A program made the translations under genes and the position numbers. The notes under the pieces are model-generated. The model saw only the letters and a list, made by a program, of their open reading frames with translations. It ran no database searches and was not told where the DNA came from. A stretch of 64,000 nucleotides of DNA from Syncephalastrum monosporum B8922 (Eukaryota > Mucoromycota > Mucoromycetes > Mucorales > Syncephalastraceae). The stretch is from NCBI GenBank assembly GCA_000697355.1, contig JNEN01000831.1, positions 47,126-111,125 of the forward strand, written 5' to 3'. Shown here one piece after another: positions 42,321 through 62,679 of the stretch (positions are counted from its first letter, which is position 1; the number at the start of each line of letters is the position of its first letter).

Positions 42321-43304
42321 CTACTTCTTGCCCAAATCACCGTCCAAACCGGCCTGCTCTCGCAGAGCTGTAAGACGAATAGTAAAAAGGCGTGAGAGGA
42401 AGCATTTGCATGATGTATCTGACTTACCAACGACGACGCCCGAGATATCCACATCACCCTTGGTCTCCAGGACATGCTCCAGATTGGAGAGGAACCGCTC
42501 GGTAGTGGGCAGATTGGCGTTGGCATCCTTGGCCAGGTCGCGGATATGGTTGACATCCTTGCGGGTTGAAGTCAAGGGGAAGAAGATTTCGTTGTTGTAC
42601 GTGTTGCCGAGCATGCGTCTCGCATATACGCTCAAGAGGGTGCCAGGCCAGACAGAGTCGATCAGCTCGACGACGTGTTCCTGACCTACGCCGGACGCCT
42701 CGCCGAGAGTCATGCCTTCCGCAAGCACTTCACAGAAGGCAGTGACGAGGTAGTTACCGTTGAGCTTGAGCTTGTATCCCGCCGTAGGTGAGTCACCGAC
42801 TTCGATCTTTTTGTGGGCGACCACGTTGTCGAGGTACTCCAGTGCCTTGGCACGCGCGTCGGGTGCACCCGAGATCAAGAGTGTCAGCTTGGCTGCATCC
42901 GCTGCCGGCGGAGGACCCATCACGGGGCAAGCAATGTAGTGGATACCTTGCGCGGCCGCCTTGTCGGCTAGACCTTGACCCACACGCGGTGCAATCGTCG
43001 ATGTCTCGACAATGATGGCATCCTTCTTCAATCCACCATCGAGGAGCTTGGTCACCACGTCCGTCACAGCCGCGTCATTGAGCATGCTGACGATCACAAG
43101 GTCGGCTTGAGTCGCGACTTGCTCGACCGTCTCGGCAATCTTTATGTCGGGACGCGCGTGCTGCAACGCCTCCGACTTGCTACGCGTTCGGTTCCAGACA
43201 AGGAGGGGCGACTGGTTCGTCTTGGCAAGGTGGTCTTGAAGGTTCCGGGCCATGTGGATGCCCATCGCACCCAGGCCGACGAAAGCTACTTGTTGGCTCG
43301 ACAT
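42321..43304 (-). CDS. 3-hydroxyisobutyrate dehydrogenase-type NAD(P)-dependent reductase
   Basis: Exons (minus) 43304-42428 and 42367-42321 give 307 aa. Beta-hydroxyacid dehydrogenase family: N-terminal Rossmann motif VAFVGLGAMGIHMARNL (GxGxMGxxMA), WNRTRSK at the cofactor-specificity loop (Arg after Asn suggests NADPH), the substrate loop region ACPVMGPPPAA (altered from the common DAPVSGG form), and the helix with the catalytic lysine KLKLNGNYL (K-x3-N). The C-terminal domain ends GDLGKK. No mitochondrial presequence precedes the fold, unlike true valine-pathway HIBADH, so a cytosolic succinic-semialdehyde, glyoxylate or related reductase is equally likely. The divergent loop makes the substrate unclear. 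Confidence 0.85.
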   Translation of the reverse strand: MSSQQVAFVGLGAMGIHMARNLQDHLAKTNQSPLLVWNRTRSKSEALQHARPDIKIAETVEQVATQADLVIVSMLNDAAVTDVVTKLLDGGLKKDAIIVETSTIAPRVGQGLADKAAAQGIHYIACPVMGPPPAADAAKLTLLISGAPDARAKALEYLDNVVAHKKIEVGDSPTAGYKLKLNGNYLVTAFCEVLAEGMTLGEASGVGQEHVVELIDSVWPGTLLSVYARRMLGNTYNNEIFFPLTSTRKDVNHIRDLAKDANANLPTTERFLSNLEHVLETKGDVDISGVVVGKSDTSCKCFLSRLFTIRLTALREQAGLDGDLGKK

Positions 43305-43918
43305 GATATAAAATGGAAGAGAAGCTAAAGTTGTATGCTTCGGAGACGGGTGCGGAACACCCCTGTGGCAATCCGTCGTCTTGGTATTTATGTTGATAGG
43401 GAACGGGTAAACTCTGGTCCCGTTCATGCGCGCATGAATTTGGGGAGTTCCACAACCGGTGACTCAGAATTGCCTTTGGCTGACAAATATTGCTACGCCC
43501 CGCCTTGATATTTTGAACAGGACCGTCTCCATTATAAGTGTACGTCAACCCATCGCTTTATGAGCTTTTCACTAGCCCACGTCACAGAGTACTCAAAAGT
43601 ACTTCTTTCGGGTTCTTTCTCATGGTGCTCTTTTACCATATGTACTTGCTTCCGTAAATACCCATATTCACCTGTATGGCTGAGTGGCGTGGCATAGGAC
43701 CACCGTTGGGCTGATCTGATCACCAGACATCCTATTGGCTAGAAGACGCAAGACGCAGGAACACGTCAACATAGATGGGGCATAACATCCCACATTCCTA
43801 TGAAATTAGAATGGCTTCCATTCGCTATGTTTGCGACAGTGCTTACCAATTAAGGAAACAAGAGACAGTTTTCATCTGCTCGGTGTTTTTTTTTACTGCC
43901 GAGGTTGTATCGTCTGCC
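43305..43918. other. Divergent upstream region
   Basis: About 610 bases between the reductase start and the pseudogene start on the other strand. No ORF of note. Contains AT-rich and CCxCGCC-like segments (43495-43502). If the pseudogene is a retrocopy, its 5' insertion point lies near here. Confidence 0.45.
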
Positions 43919-44659
43919 ATGGAGAACTACCACGCTGTTGTCCTCGACATTGAGGGCACCATTACTCCAATTACTTTTGTCAAAGACATTTTGTTTCCGT
44001 ACGTTACTCAAGGCCTAGACGCGCTTCTAAAACGACAATGGTCTTCGTCTGACCTTTCAGAACACATCGAGCAGCTGCGCAACCAGGCTGCTGAAGACGT
44101 GAAGAACAGCGAACCGTCTGCTGTATTGGTCCCTTCTGATGGATCGGATGACGAGATTAAGCAAGCCTAAATAAAGAATATTGGGTGGCAGATGAAGCAG
44201 GTCGCAAGATCGGCGCTCTCAAGGCGTTCCAGGGTTACACTTGGAAGGAAGGATATATCAGCGGTCAGCTGCGTGGAGAAGTCTATCCTGACGTGATCCC
44301 AAAGCTCGATCAGTGGCAAAGCGCTGGCAAGAAAATCTACCTTTATTCATCCGGAAGTGCGCCAGCGCAGAAACTACTGGTCGGCTAATCGAATAAGGGC
44401 GACTTCTTGAAGTACTTTTCTGGTTACTTTGACACAGCTATTGGCCTCAAAACAAAAAGTTGAGTCTTACAGCCGCATTGCGCACGAAATTGGACAATCT
44501 CCTTCCCAAGTCCTCTATGTGAGCGACAATATCAAAGAAATTCAAGCCGCTGATCAAGCCCAGTTCCAGACGGTTATTTCTGAACGACCTGGTAACGCTC
44601 CCCGGGGCCCAGAGAGCCAGTCGTTCTAGATCATTACTTCATTTGACCAAATTGCATAA
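43919..44659 (+). pseudogene. Enolase-phosphatase E1 (methionine salvage) pseudogene
   Basis: The frame opens MENYHAVVLDIEGTITPITF, the HAD phosphatase DxEGT motif of enolase-phosphatase E1 (yeast Utr4), which turns a diketo-pentyl phosphate into acireductone. Family blocks then appear in the right order but broken: a stop after DDEIKQA (44168), a frameshift near 44190, GRKIGALKAFQGYTWKEGYI, the IYLYSSGSAPAQKLL block, a stop at 44386, a shift in an A-run at about 44455, ESYSRIAHEIGQSPSQVLYV and a stop before IITSFDQIA. No intron interrupts the homology over 740 bases, although surrounding genes are intron-rich, so a processed retrocopy is plausible. No clear poly-A tail or target duplication was seen. 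Not expected to be functional. Confidence 0.88.
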
Positions 44660-45939
44660 TTACAACTGTTTTATTCACGGTTCCATTATACAGTACAGCG
44701 TTGGCGATCATAAAGCCAAATTCATTTCCGCAGGCGAGCCTACGTATAAACAAGACCAAGTGGGCGTGAAAAATACTGGATTGAAAGCGAGTACTCACTC
44801 ACAGAAAAAGACAATTATTCTTTGTGAACGCCGCAACTGAAGGCAAGCAAGCCAAGACGCCGCGCATATAGAGTTTTATTGAGTTTTGATGAGCTAAAAG
44901 ACTACTCAGACGCCGCGAAGCAGAAGTAAACTACTAGACGAGGTTGTAAAAAAGGAGAGAGAGAGACGATGTCATTAATATAAACTGGACTCTTTTAAAA
45001 TCGGTAGACACACTGTGGGGGTTGGCTTGGATTTGGGGTTCCTGAATACCGAGCTTGATAGGTCGGTGTTGTATACTTGTTGAGTACCAGTCAAACCACA
45101 GAGATGCATTTGGCGTACGAGATAAGATCAGAGGAATTGTGCACTACTTGAGAATAAATGTAGCGGCTTTATTTGTCGGTGGAGAAGGCTAATCCAACGG
45201 AGACAATAGGATATGAATTTGAGTTGTTCAAGATATCGGCGTATTGAATAAAGTATATGTAGATTTAGAACTGGATATCTGTACTACTGATGTCTTCTTT
45301 AAGGGGACGAGTGATTAGAAAGAGGAAAGTGGTGAGTGAAGTGGCGAAAGAAGCGAAATTTCTGAGATAGGCCCCTAAGACTGAGCAGTCTCACAACATC
45401 TTATCCCACGCAATACAGGTACCGACGAACCAGTGCTGCTGTAGTTGTCGCGCGCCCAAAGGACCTTGTATCTGTGACATATAAAACAAAACCTGTTAGA
45501 TCTATCTTGAAGACTCTGAATTATAAAGTCGTACATGAATGTTCACCGAAAGCCAAACAGGGAATGGGGACTCCCACAGGCAACACGCTGAACGAAATGT
45601 CAACTGGTCGCTAATGACAAAATAAACGTCAGCCGTACTGGTAGTGTGTAACGAACTGCAGAGCTTACCCTTGTAGCCTTTGTGTAGATGGGTGTATGAA
45701 ATTAGGAAAAAATGATATATGGCTATCTCAAATTGAACTCTATATATTTTCAGAACAAGAGGTAGGATCCGCTCAGTGCTTGAACAGACATATTCACTGA
45801 CATGTCATACAGAAACTAATATCTTTCCTGATTATTAAATATACACACTACACAAGTCTACCAAGTGCGTATCTAGACCCAGTCAAAACCCACAACGTGT
45901 TCAAAGGAGAAGATAGTAAAATCTAGCTTTGTTATATAT
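44660..45939. other. Intergenic spacer
   Basis: About 1.3 kb with no ORF worth reporting. It contains an (AG)n run near 44957-44970 and AT-rich sequence with TATATA-type runs near 45930-45960 where the neighbouring gene ends. Confidence 0.5.
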
Positions 45940-55745: not shown

Positions 55746-56370
55746 CAGGTCTTGTATCTTGTGTTTATTTGCCAGGAACGGCTACTTTTGGGCTTTAATG
55801 CAAGTCCGTTTTAGATAGCGTCGGATAATCTGGTGGACATATTGAGATCACAATGTCTCGTAATGTCGCACACTGGAGAGCAACGCTGCTCATCACTTCG
55901 CTCACTAAGAAGGAAGTGTATTATTGGCCGACTGTCCGGTGCCCGTCTCGTTTTTATCAAACACGTTTCTGGTATGCACGAATATTGACAGGTGGCAAGC
56001 TATTTTGATAGCTAACGTACTGCACAGTACTCTACAGCATGCACAATGCTGTATGAGTAAGCAGGGGTCGTTATAATTCTCCCGATGTGGAGGTAGACGT
56101 TGTGATCTTTATTGAGGGGCTGCGAATTCGGAAAACATGCTGCTTTGTTGGAGAAGTGGAGGATGTAAAAGAAGATAAAGAAAGCGACAAAATTAGACTG
56201 CTGAGCAGCAAATCACTTTCTAATTTGTTCACTTCGTGATTTCCCAATAGCCTACAGATGCAGGGCGGATACCAGCGTAAAATTCGTTGTTTCGATTCAC
56301 ATCTTGAGGAGTAGATATAAAGGGTCGATGTTGGAAACCGAATGGCTTCATTCCCAAACTTTTCAACAAC

Positions 56371-56580
56371 ATGCTCCGCAAAAACAAGACAAACGGCGGC
56401 GACGCCGGCAACCGCAAGGCTCCGAAGAAGCAGGCCCACGGGGCCAAGACGAAACTCGGGCACTGGAGTGCCCATCCAAAGGACCTGTGCTTGGTCCATC
56501 AAACCGCCAAGCACACCAACGAGCTGTGCAGGGCACAGCAAGCACTGCGCGTTGTGCAGCAGCAGCAGCAGCAGCAGTGA
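56371..56580 (+). mobile_element. Gag-like zinc-knuckle ORF fragment
   Basis: 69-codon ORF with a Lys/Gly-rich start and the pattern CLVHQTAKHTNELC (C-x2-H-x4-H-x4-C), a motif common in gag proteins of fungal LTR retrotransposons, followed by a poly-Gln end. No reverse transcriptase, integrase or LTR was found nearby, so this is at most a fragment. The match is one short motif. Confidence 0.4.
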
Positions 56581-56645
56581 GCGCCCGCTCTCTCCCTCGC
56601 TCTCTCCCTCGCTCTCTCCCTCGCTCTCTCGCTCTCGCTGTCTCG

Positions 56646-57518: not shown

Positions 57519-58908
57519 CCCGGTATAAAAAGTTCCTCTTAGTCTTTGATCATGTATTATACAAATTTCTGATTCTTGAGGTATGTCAATGTCGATTTAG
57601 GTGATTTTTTCTTTTCAGCATGTGATATAGGGTAGGTAAGATAAAATAAAGGCAACAGGAATAAGTCTGTGAGAATGTCTGTAGGTTGTTTTTTATAAAG
57701 GCAGTTGAATTTGTGTTCTCAACTTATGCTAGTTGGGTTCTATCTTCTACCCTTTATATATCTTCTTGAATCTCACTTATGATGCCATGATCCGGGTACT
57801 CGGTTGCATACGAGCCCATCGGTATAAAGTGCGTAATGCAGATAAATTTCAATTGACATGTCGGATAAATGTGGTCCATACTAACGCAGTGAAACATTGA
57901 ATTATGCCAATGTCATAATAAAAATACCGGTATTCCTTGTGCGAGTCTTCTATGTCATCTTTGCGGGTAATCATTCTCATATTGGACGTACTTGTCTCGG
58001 TAATAATATTTATGTCTTCCTTGGCATTCAATCTCGGTATTATTATTAGGCAGTATGATTTGAGAGCAGCCGTATCAGTGACTAAGTGGCCACATCTACC
58101 ACACAGCATAAACTGACTTTACTGTCCATACATGTTAGTATTGATGTAGGATATTGCCGGTTTAATTTTTTTTGCCACCCGGTGTCTCGAAAAAATCGGG
58201 CAGTTTCTAGTGTATATTCTCTGGTATCAAAGTACAACGACCTCTCCGAGATATGTTTCTAGCCAGAAATGTACGGGCACTGGCTGGTGAGCAGTCATGT
58301 GGAAAGTCGTGAGACGATTTGCTTTCCGAAAGTTTTGGTATAGGTACGCGAATTATCTTGTGTATCGAGTTGAAGGAGCTGGGATCATGAGGCATTCTGA
58401 CAAAACAACGTATATCGCGGCGTTTTTGCGTGACAGGCATTGCTCCCGCGGCTTAAACCACAGGGTTGTACTATATAAACGAGAAAAAGGAAAATGCATA
58501 TATTCAAGTAAGAACAGCGATTTAACTGAGGCCAAGCGCTTCGCTGTGCTTTTTTATTTTTAACCAACAGTCATTTCAGTAGTCTAGCCGCAAAGTGTAT
58601 GGTACTTCTTCATTATACACTTCGTTTATGTGTAGTTTAAGCGTTTATAGAGTGTTTCCTATACGAAACAATAAGAGATGAGAAACCAAAAAAAAAAATT
58701 AGGAGTGAGGATTTGGGTTTATTCATTATATAGTAGCTGCTCAAGGTCTTTAAACCGAGCGCTGGAGAGCTTCACGTACTGGAATTATCATCAGCAAAGT
58801 CGCGTCTTTTGTCACTTAATACCTCTTTTCCTCTTTTCCTCGCTCCCTCTCCCTTTCCCTTTCCCTCTCTTCCTCGTATGTCTCTGATGCTTCTCCTTAT
58901 GGGCGCTG
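57519..58908. other. Spacer downstream of the Fanzor gene
   Basis: About 1.4 kb of AT-rich DNA with short ORFs only. The half nearer the Fanzor (58200-58900) could include the element's left end and guide-RNA sequence, but I could not identify terminal repeats by eye. Confidence 0.4.
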
Positions 58909-59273
58909 GGGCTGTGCTACCCTGGTCGACTGCTCAACAGCGGCGCGCTATTCCTCATGTTTCTTTTGTTCTTCTTCCTCTTGTGGAGTTCGGGTCTGAC
59001 GCTGGAGTTCGATTGATCTGTTGCCCTTGGTTAACTGCTCGACAGCGGCGCGTTGCTCTCCTGCTCTTCTTATTCCTCTTGTTCCTCTTGTTCCTCTTGT
59101 CCCTCTTGTCCCTCTTGTCCCTCTTGTCCCTCATGTTCCTCTTGTCCCTCATGTTCCTCTTGTTCTTCTTGTTCCTCATGCTCCTCCTGTTCTTCTTCCT
59201 CTTGGGGAGTTCGCGTCTGACGCTGGAGATCGGTCGGTCTGCTGCCCTTGGTCAACTGCTCAACAGCGGCGCG
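58909..59273 (-). repeat. Tandem copies of the Fanzor 3' terminal coding block
   Basis: A block read on the minus strand as RRAAVEQLTKG...LQRQTRTPQEEE (about 59195-59273) recurs at about 58977-59052, beyond the stop codon and with substitutions. It recurs again partially at about 58909-58947. Between the first two copies lies a 9-nt-period array (ctcttgtcc/ctcttgttc, about 59064-59170) that encodes the E/Q/G tail. The duplication means the present stop codon sits inside a repeat, so the original C-terminus is uncertain. Confidence 0.8.
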
Positions 59274-62200
59274 GCGAATGTTCCTGCTGGCATTGATGTC
59301 ACGTTGCCATAATCTGTTACAATTCTTGCAAGCCAGTACACCGTGCAATGCGGATTCCAACGCGGGTGGACGATAATTTTTGAGTCTGGCCTTCTTGTCA
59401 CGTAGCTTGCAGCGGGAGCATACCTGCGACGTGAAATACTCGTCAACCTTCACAACTTCCAACAGTCCTTGCCGCTGTCCACGTTTCAGCATCTTGGTGA
59501 GAGTTCCAGCCAGGCTAGCTGTTTGTTTGCCGCGATAGGTAGAGGGGAACGCCGCGTTTCCAAGAGCCACAAGAGGTTTTTTGCTCGATTGACTGAAAGG
59601 TGACTCTTTCCACTTGTTGCTGTTTGAGTAGAGATTCATTAGTGTAAAGAATAGATATCGGATCATTTTGTCAATGCATACCTTGGTGGCCGATGATAAC
59701 TCTCGAAAGCATAACGGAGAGGCGGGCGGTTACGTGGTGGATCCGCCAACGGTGGCCAAGGGTCCTCTGATGCTGGTACGTTGAAAAACCTGCGCCTGTC
59801 TGGTGGCGGGGCAGAAGGACCTCCTGGTGGATATGCGATCCGCTGATATGGTGTCGGGTCAGGATCAGGGAAGAAAAAACTCGAGACGGTCAGGGGTTGG
59901 GCTAGGTCCCATGCTGATTGTCGATACCACTGTCTCCGCTGGCGCGCGTCGCGCTGCTCTTGATGCGCTTGTTCCCGCTGTTCCTGTACGCCTCTTTGCT
60001 CTTGCCGTTGACGTAGGTTATCGCGTTGTTTTCGTAGGCGTTCCGGACAATATTTTCTGCCTCCGTTCACGAAAATATTCAGGATTTCTGATTGAGCGCG
60101 TTGCCGACCGGCATAGTTGTAAAATCGAAACTTGGGTCCATGGTCACGATAAAAGCTGGTCAGCTGCGGCAGCAGTTCGAATAACTGTTGGAGGTACTGC
60201 ATGAGCGTATTTGGGTCGCTGGTCTTGTATCGGGATCGGCTCAGTCGTTCCTCGGCCTGGATTATGCCTTGGTTTCCTTTCGCTTCCAGCATTTTCTTTG
60301 AGGACTTTTTGTAACCGGCGATCGAATAGAACTCTGCAGCGCTCATCTTGCGGATCTGGTGTGGCTCCTCAACGTGACCGTTGCTTGCCACGAAGATTTC
60401 GGTAACGCCGGGATCGACGCCCCATACCTCGTACTTGTTCTGTACTGCTTGGTCCGTTTCAGTCTCCGTGACATCTTTGACATGTTCTTCTTCTGTTCTT
60501 TGCCTGGCCAGAATAAAGTCCACACCGTGGCCATCGCTTCTGATATGACCAGTGAACATGACCGGAGGTTCTGGCTCTGTGATGGTCGCCAGCATATCGG
60601 GAAAGCCGATGGCAGAAAAGTCAAAAGTCTCGGCGAAAAGCCGGAGGATGTCGTCCCACTTTCTTGGATCGTTGGGAATGCCGCCTGATCGCTGACATAC
60701 ATCTTCCAGTAAGCGTGGTGTAGAATGCCGCAAAAGCGCCGCGAGCATTTCGCCGTCGATATACGAGTAGCGTCTGCTCAGATGGGAAGACGGCGACAGG
60801 CTGAAATACGGCCGTTGCTGAGCTACTTGATGGGCTTCTGGAGTAAAACAGTCGCCGAGCTGTACGCCGGCAGCATTACCACTCAGGTATCGGCGCGAGT
60901 TTTCGATTTGGCGTCTGGTATCATTGATAGTGTCTTGAACTCGCTGACGGGACGGCTGTGAAAGCTTCTCCATATCGACACGGTCTTGATACTTGATGAC
61001 AGCTTCCTGAATATCCTTTGCCAGACGGCTTCGATATCTGCGACCGAGCTGAGGCCACTCTGGTAGGTCTTTGATCACCGAGTATGCCCAAGAGCGAGTG
61101 GCCTGGATTTGAGGACGGTTGGCAGATGCTAGCTGATTAGCGTTGAATCGTTCGATGCGTCTGAGAGCGTGGAACATGAACGACATGTAGCAATAAGGAT
61201 ACTGGGCGAGCGATGCATCCGTGATAGGGAGGATATCTTCGAGGCGGTCCTCTGGCAGGTATCGCCATGCTTCATTGATCAACGCTTCGGTCCTCTCCTG
61301 CAACAGGGCCGTACGCTTGACGCTGGCTGGCCAGCGGGCTGGTTGCTCCATTTCTGCAAACTGGCCGTAAATATAATGCGCCAAGTGCTTGGCCTGTGGG
61401 ACGGTCAGACGTGTGACATCGTTGTTGTCAAGCAGTGCATATACAAAAAAGCTCTTGGCGTTCCGCTCGAAGCGCTCCGAGATTGAATTGCGGAAGGCCA
61501 CCTCCATTTCTTTGGCAAGGGCTTGTCGTGCGTGGCCGTATGGGAGACTTTCGACTGTGCATTTCGCCGGCCGCTGGAATCGGGGTTTGTAGATGTTTCG
61601 GAAAACCGTCGTCATGTCGACCCTGGGTAAGAGCGGATTTGGGCTCGATATCGAGGACCCGTCGACTAGCTGGATACAGGCCGCAAAGAAGGGCTGGTCG
61701 AAAAGAATAGCTGGAAGGGGCTGATTTGGGTCTCGGTTCAAGGTATGGAGCAAGTAGAAGTGAGCAAATGCTTGTGCCTTGATGCCCAGTTCGGTGATAT
61801 AGTCGACCATTCTGCGGAGCTCATTCATGAATCCTTGCTTTTGAGCACCATCAAAGCGAAGGACAGACTCGACGCTTGCCTTGCGGACAAATTGAGCAGG
61901 ATGACCGTCACGGAGCTTGTCTTGCATAATGTTCTTGTACGACGGATTGTTAAATGGGCACAGCTTGTTTCTTGTGCTGCCGTGCGGTTTGTCTTTGTCG
62001 TACACGCCTTCTTTCGTACACCTGGAACATGGCTTTACGTTCGGATTCTTGGTCGCCTGCTTCAGTTTTTCTTTGCCTTTTATGTGCTGCTCCTTTTTGG
62101 ATTCGCCAGCGTCGTCCAGGGAGTCTGCTTCGTCGTCAGACCAGGCTGCGGCATCGTCAGAGGCACCTATTGCCATTGATGCAAAGGCATCCAGTACAGA

Positions 62201-62679
62201 CCAAACTGGTGAAATTGGCATCGGCGATGGGGAGCGGGCGACATAGGCAGAAGGGGCGGCAGGGGAGGCGTAATAGGCGCTGCCGTTATGGATCGCAGCT
62301 GAAGAGCTTGCGCCGTTGGCCTCACTTCTGTCAAAGGCGCTTCAATTTATGTTAGATAGGTTATTCTTTTTTGTAAGTGATATTTACATTGGGTAGTCAT
62401 GGAACTGTTTTCTCGTAGGCCCAAGGAAAAAGTTTAAACGGTCTTCAGCACCGTTGATACCGTTGGCAAGGTAAGTCCCGTTGGTGATGCTGGCGATGCT
62501 GGTGTGGTTAGTTTGATGAGAATGGTTAGTATGGTTAGTGGGGTGCATGGGGTGGATGGAAGGGTTCAAATCCTTCAAGTCCAACTTTCGACGTTTCCTA
62601 TTACGGCTCAAAGGGAGATCAGCAACGTCTTTCATTTTCTGTTATCGTTTTCTTACGGTGGTGGTTGATCAAGATCCAT
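59070..62679 (-). CDS. Fanzor: eukaryotic TnpB-like RNA-guided endonuclease
   Basis: Exons (minus) 62679-62657, 62597-62388, 62339-59682 and 59619-59070 give about 1146 aa. Splicing of the 59-nt first intron joins MDLDQPPP to KRRKLD, a monopartite nuclear-localisation signal. Next come a disordered Asn/His-rich stretch, a Cys/His cluster (C182, C185, H197, C205; PCSRCTKEGVYD...LCPF), a large helical recognition region, and the TnpB/Fanzor block TGHIRSDGHGVDFIL. RuvC-I is VWGVDPGVTEIFVAS (D720). RuvC-II is degenerate, LVALGNAAF (Gly 984), with E1024 in VDEYFTSQ 40 residues later. The zinc ribbon CSRC...CKNC (1031/1034/1061/1064) precedes RuvC-III LWQRDINASRNI (D1071). An E/Q/G-rich tail follows. 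All catalytic elements are present and no internal stop was found. Fanzors cut DNA guided by an RNA encoded near their own 3' end. The start at 62679 is favoured by the signal; a start at 62635 without splicing keeps KRRKLD too. Confidence 0.9.

Follow-up and report, generated by a model that had tools for sequence, protein, structure and literature searches.

Introduction

One end of a contig of Syncephalastrum monosporum B8922 carries a gene that, according to the original prediction, encodes a complete, intron-bearing Fanzor RNA-guided nuclease. This raises the question of whether the gene is an intact member of the Fanzor family, what its extra length consists of, and whether it belongs to a mobile element. 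We analysed a stretch of 64,000 nucleotides (hereafter, the window), which is the end of contig C75 in a genome of 198 contigs. We consider it very probable that the locus holds an intact gene, that the encoded protein is a long and divergent one of Fanzor1 type, and that the gene is carried by a repeat some 6.7 kb in length, which we take to be a DNA transposon. The protein is a long version of a known Fanzor family and not a new kind of system.

Structure of the gene

Splicing of the minus strand reproduced the predicted coordinates, strand, three introns and length of about 1146 aa: the Fanzor-type gene has four exons and three introns (Table 1), and its frame is open through all four exons, as expected of a frame free of lesions. 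The three introns are supported by their splice signals and by a protein of S. racemosum (P0001, see below), whose alignment runs across the exon joins, and intron 3 also by its position and phase, which are identical to those of an intron of a second Fanzor family (family B) in the same genome. A model with two introns, encoding 1151 aa and starting inside intron 1, was dropped in favour of the three-intron model, because exon 1 of the latter gives MDLDQPPPKRRKLDLK, which aligns with MDIDDHPKAKRRKLNLE of S. racemosum. The nuclear-localisation signal that had been proposed is plausible, judged by eye, as PKRRKLD.

Table 1. Positions in the window of the gene, its predicted protein motifs and the repeated element.
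Feature	Position	Strand	Content or basis
Exon 1	62657..62679	-	start codon, MDLDQPP; aligns with MDIDDHPK of S. racemosum P0001
Intron 1	62598..62656	-	59 nt, GTAAGA...TAATAG
Exon 2	62388..62597	-	contains KRRKLD of the putative nuclear signal
Intron 2	62340..62387	-	48 nt, GTAAAT...CTAAC...GAAG
Exon 3	59682..62339	-	N-terminal region, helical region, RuvC-I Asp720, RuvC insertion
Intron 3	59620..59681	-	62 nt, GTATGC...CTAAT...ACAG
Exon 4	59070..59619	-	Glu1024, C4 zinc ribbon, Asp1071, acidic Glu/Gln tail (residues 1101-1146)
N-terminal CCHC motif (C182, C185, H197, C205)	61958..62029	-	alignment
RuvC-I Asp720 codon	60413..60415	-	sequence
RuvC insertion, residues 842-964, 123 aa	59682..60049	-	alignment
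PPGGP motif, residues 915-919	59816..59830	-	alignment
Catalytic Glu1024 codon (VDEYFTS)	59439..59441	-	sequence
C4 zinc ribbon, Cys1031, 1034, 1061, 1064	59319..59420	-	PF07282 match and sequence
RuvC-III Asp1071 codon (QRDINAS)	59298..59300	-	sequence
Non-coding block, candidate guide-RNA scaffold	58157..58359	-	close to the element's 3' end, kept in 5 copies
Approximate 3' boundary of the element (CCGGCAATATCCTACATC in gene sense)	58138..58156	.	set by one copy, C69
Element as far as the contig reaches	58138..64000	-	5' end lost at the contig end; for sister copy C154 the end is at 568113

A RuvC module with a zinc ribbon

The profile check proposed with the prediction gave a result well above chance: exon 4 (open frame 59070-59729) matches Pfam PF07282, the TnpB/Cas12f zinc ribbon, with an E-value of 7.7e-13 and 48.8 bits, the cut-off being 26.3 bits. 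The same exon matches the PHROG 506 transposase (E 5.9e-15), NCBIfam TnpB models match with scores under their cut-offs, and Pfam on exon 3 gave no match at E <= 0.1. Alignment identifies the RuvC triad as Asp720, Glu1024 and Asp1071, the last of which sits in an RD motif. The catalytic residues and the four cysteines that had been predicted are present in order, but the Glu, described as an alternative one, sits where the catalytic Glu of Fanzors usually does, after the fifth beta strand and ahead of the TNB domain (Xu et al., PMC11423790). Compared with the Fanzor1 pattern of Bao and Jurka 2013, D-X(125,275)-[TS][TS]-XX-[C4]-X(5,50)-RD (PMC3627910), the order and all residues are found, with X5 before RD, but the first gap is 306 residues to Thr1027 (304 when counted to Tyr1025) and exceeds the limit of 275 because of the 123-aa RuvC insertion.

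A catalytic profile with the RuvC insertion cut out (A5) retrieves 24 different PDB sequences at E <= 10, with a lowest E-value of 0.00055. The best 18 of these 24 are TnpB/TnpB-like, IS605 OrfB/OrfB_Zn_ribbon, transposase, LaTranC, Cas12f/Cas12m and Fanzor1 sequences, and the remaining six are unrelated. For the sequences of the Fanzor1 structures, the E-values are 0.014 (GtFz1), 0.064 (PpFz1) and 0.088 (SpuFz1), and the sequence links to solved Fanzor1 proteins are weak and restricted to the C-terminal module. Exon 3 alone matched no PDB chain at E <= 1, P0001 matched none at E <= 10, and the spliced window protein matched only one TnpB-like chain, at E 0.9. When the insertion was retained, a four-protein profile gave a TFIID chain as its top match (E 5e-05), having been misled by the Gln-rich stretch. 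AlphaFold2 returned low-confidence models both for P0001 (five sequences, pLDDT 40) and for the last exon (seven sequences, pLDDT 47); with the latter, Foldseek gave 44 matches at E <= 10 and none at E <= 0.001. Since the ribbon, the triad and the transposon setting are all found, and the best 18 of the 24 A5 matches are TnpB/Cas12/Fanzor-type, we call the protein Fanzor1-type, which is probably its place in the family.

Relatives and selection on the protein

A six-frame search of the genome (27.5 Mb, 198 contigs) with PF07282 gave, as a lower bound, at least 26 places, of which 25 are over the cut-off. The places examined were sorted into three families, the remainder being left unsorted. 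Family A comprises the window gene, C154, C69, C70, C40 and fragments; family B comprises C167, C146, C105, C46, C86 and relics; and family C comprises C179, which was read, together with C173, C176, C24, C156 and C164, which were placed by similar scores only. The proteins of families A and B are 40% identical. Apart from the window gene, no copy of subfamily A was found that is both complete and unbroken. Its sister copy C154 is 95% identical over 6.4 kb, with a frame that is broken by two single-base frame-changing differences in exon 3. For C70, C69 and C40, which run off the ends of their contigs, completeness cannot be judged.

Between the window gene and C154, dN/dS is 0.326 in exon 3 (882 codons) and 0.245 in exon 4 (130 codons), and against the diverged copy C40 it is 0.256 (exon 3, 605 codons). 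Ratios of 0.24-0.33 point to selection on the protein. Within family B, C167 and C146 gave 0.225 (952 codons); between families A and B, dS is saturated and yields no usable ratio.

A homologue search with the Fanzor core found one relative among the candidates scored, S. racemosum BCR43DRAFT_518717 (P0001), and a five-row profile found the same single protein as the one-sequence search (scoring in each covered the 7993 or 7994 candidates with the most words in common). The identity is 70% over 94% of the query region, and P0001 also has the N-terminal KRRKL and CCHC motifs and the RuvC insertion, with IAYPPGGPSA. As annotated, it stops after DEYLTSQ (DEYLTSQYLQQTVAA) and is without the zinc ribbon and the last Asp, which may be an annotation error or a real loss. 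A dehydrogenase in the window (42324-43463) is 83% identical to an S. racemosum protein and 97% identical to an unnamed protein, in both cases over 86% of the query. These relationships fit a host that is a Syncephalastrum species other than S. racemosum.

The N-terminal region and the RuvC insertion

As the original prediction stated, the protein is longer than many described Fanzors: most Fanzor1 proteins have 600-700 aa (PMC11423790), of which 1146 aa is about 1.6 to 1.9 times, and some reach about 800 aa (PMC10711439). Before the first catalytic Asp stand 719 residues, with a CCHC motif that is invariant in all four aligned proteins. By eye, the family B protein (L041 4535-7429) has two more N-terminal CCHC-like motifs beyond the one shared with family A.

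The extra length is due in part to the RuvC insertion, which sits between RuvC-I and the strand preceding Glu1024. Of the 107 columns in its second part, 14 are identical in three divergent proteins, namely those of the window, S. racemosum and C40. Five of the 14 stand together as PPGGP, which is kept as [FY]PPGGP in all three. A run of five identical columns appeared in 37 of 20,000 shuffles of the column order, in a test that was post hoc and in which the window and S. racemosum proteins are close relatives. The family B protein is without PPGGP and carries a Gln/Glu stretch and PAKKKKV in its place; among the loci examined, the motif is confined to family A.

The repeated element

The length of the element, about 6.7 kb, was measured on the sister copy C154. 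Its 5' end is sharp. The terminus (C)ATCC(C)ACATTCCTATG is kept, with differing flanks, in 12 of 16 aligned ends, which were drawn from 41 matches, many of them partial, of the last 276 bp (L040 3850-4125); the other four (C95, C99, C38 and C145) are degenerate. Four of the 12 kept ends are preceded by CTA, and three of these by ATCCTA, as at the 3' end in the window, so that those 5' flanks are not fully independent of the element. The shared bases may reflect a target preference or head-to-tail junctions.

The 3' region (window 58125-58600) was found at five places in the genome. C69 departs from the other family A copies just past CCGGCAATATCCTTCATC; beyond this point, sequence shared with the window continues in C154 to 57643 and, in rearranged form, in C95 and C153 to 56288. 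Because of this sharing, the 3' boundary is set by C69 alone. No target-site duplication of the element was identified, and C154, the sole copy read at both ends, shares its 3'-side flank with the window. The repeats that self-BLAST showed in the sister copy were all direct ones of the acidic tail; no terminal inverted repeats were seen. In C154, the open reading frames of at least 60 aa that lie between the gene and the 5' end measure 60-131 aa, exon pieces included, and none is of transposase size in this survey, which could miss spliced genes.

Several other repeats were observed. The 5' end of the element has 41 genome matches versus only five for the 3' region, which implies that many derivatives share the 5' end alone. 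Rearranged family A copies (C95 = L046, C153 = L047, and also C116) share a junction at which window position 56288 is joined to 60367 in the opposite orientation, and this common junction suggests that one rearrangement was probably multiplied. At window 43784-45607 lies the relic of an element that has its 5' end in common with the Fanzor element (95% identical to the C154 copy over 43784-43893), with two weaker pieces behind it. The repeat at 57621-58103 was considered as the element end and rejected; it is now read as a probable solo LTR of 483 bp (TG...CA) with a 5-bp duplication, CAGCA, which adjoins the Fanzor element, has 54 genome matches, often several per copy, and has an empty site on contig C95. 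The plus strand at 56366-56583 encodes, as read by eye, a short CCHC piece resembling gag (CLVHQTAKHTNELC), after which come Gln repeats.

Candidate guide RNA and family B 3' ends

The candidate guide-RNA scaffold of family A is a block of about 200 nt kept in five copies. Covariation was seen in none of its 39 pairs. The terminal 148 nt in the window fold with a z of -1.64, and 16 of 200 shuffles fold as well; two family B ends gave z-values of 0.11 and 0.60. These folding energies are no better than expected and hence give the candidate RNA no support, and an Rfam search of the window at gathering thresholds gave no matches. In the candidate hairpin of family B, a single sequence has both bases of one of the 11 pairs changed, and several cells are broken.

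In family B, about 125 nt separate the stop codon from the element end. This 3' stretch has 16 matches at 15 loci, of which 14 were compared (C121 was left out) and, once the truncated C100 and C86 were dropped, 12 were kept. All 12 ends coincide within about four bases and then enter different DNA: CGTTTCAG is present in every one, the next C in 11 and CCGG in five, after which they diverge. A common 3' end with differing flanks is what would be expected if the flank of such an element served as its guide. It should be noted that the likeness of these ends is partly common descent, because most are decayed copies of family B. The family B elements (L041-L043, L052-L060) end in CTTGTTCGTTTCAG or nearly so, which resembles a 3' splice acceptor, and an insertion could thus splice into its flank.

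Discussion

The prediction of an intact, intron-bearing Fanzor in a fungal genome agrees with the motifs, the ribbon and the introns found here, and the designation RNA-guided nuclease is inferred from what is known of the family. By that knowledge, the protein would enter the nucleus and bind a guide RNA read from the 3' end of the element, the last part of which would be neighbouring host sequence. It would then cut matching DNA beside a short motif with a single RuvC centre (Asp720, Glu1024 and Asp1071), and the cutting of empty target sites could help the transposon to persist. The 12 compared family B copies offer ready-made guesses for the guide RNA and the guides, and the presence in one small genome of an intact Fanzor of such length, alongside many related copies, provides natural material for studying the function of the extra domains.

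An intact-looking gene could also be a dying relic, with a frame that is open through recent arrival and an enzyme that is no longer expressed or mobile. Such a fate would fit the single complete, unbroken copy of subfamily A, the two frame-changing differences in exon 3 of a sister that is still 95% identical (C154), the partial state of the other family A pieces (although C70, C69 and C40 run into contig ends and so cannot be judged) and an element in which no transposase-sized frame was seen. Against this, the catalytic residues are all kept, and the low dN/dS versus C154 (0.326, 882 codons) and C40 (0.256, 605 codons) indicates that selection acted along much of the history of the gene; we regard a relic as possible, but rather unlikely. 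Purifying selection, together with a 70% identical protein in S. racemosum, would also fit a gene domesticated by the host for a function of its own, but the gene belongs to a repeat family whose 5' end is sharp and whose sister copy is broken, and we regard domestication as very improbable.

The assignment to Fanzor1 has to be weighed against TnpB and Fanzor2, given that the top PDB sequences by profile are TnpB-type chains and that the NCBIfam TnpB models match, under their cut-offs. The length and the three introns argue against both, as do the survey of C154, which showed no recombinase-sized frame (the open reading frames listed reach at most 131 aa, although spliced genes could be missed), and the presence, as G984/E1024, of the Gly...Glu pair of Fanzor1 (PMC3627910). 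We hold a TnpB or Fanzor2 to be improbable, and compare the gene below as an intact one of Fanzor1 type.

Comparison with known Fanzor systems

Published descriptions of Fanzor1 genes from Mucor, Rhizopus and Phycomyces go back to 2013 (PMC3627910). In the literature searched on Fanzor, Mucorales and Syncephalastrum, which leaves many journals outside, we found no report of the present protein. The Fanzor1 proteins of Bao and Jurka (MCi, ROr and PBl; PMC3627910) have the C4 ribbon and RD as here, and some of their transposons are without transposase. Their elements show either MuDR-like inverted repeats accompanied by 9-bp duplications, or duplications of 11-12 bp or 6 bp (PMC3627910), whereas self-BLAST found no inverted repeats in the sister copy of the window element, the two being compared by description only. 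The Gly...Glu pair is spaced by 36 residues in their Fanzor1 (G500/E536; PMC3627910) and by 40 in the window protein.

SpuFz1 (8GKH) and GtFz1 (9CER) have the RuvC Asp, the Glu between beta 5 and the TNB, the zinc ribbon and the third catalytic position (PMC11423790). The last is Asn in GtFz1 (PMC11423790) and Asp1071 here, and neither protein is named there as a size exception, in contrast to the 1146 aa of the window protein.

PpFz1 of Parasitella parasitica (PDB 9CF0-9CF3) is a mucoralean Fanzor1 with a RuvC insertion of about 100 aa and a proline loop (PMC11423790). This insertion, the FRI domain, binds cyclophilin through P614 and P616, and its authors found it only in Parasitella and Rhizopus (PMC11423790). 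The insertion in the window protein also lies within RuvC and has 123 aa, versus about 100 aa in PpFz1. A maltose-binding protein tag has roughly 370-390 aa; the PpFz1 PDB chain, fused to such a tag, has 1259 aa, which leaves about 870 without it, versus 1146 here. As a tentative suggestion that is itself unlikely, the insertion may be a loop at which a host protein docks, the likeliest candidate being a cyclophilin that grips [FY]PPGGP, and the long CCHC N-terminus may be an added RNA/DNA domain. If the docking reading is true, mucoralean Fanzors that use a prolyl isomerase are not limited to those of Parasitella and Rhizopus. The [FY]PPGGP motif allows the question of host partners of Fanzors, which PpFz1 and its cyclophilin brought up, to be put to the test in a second lineage.
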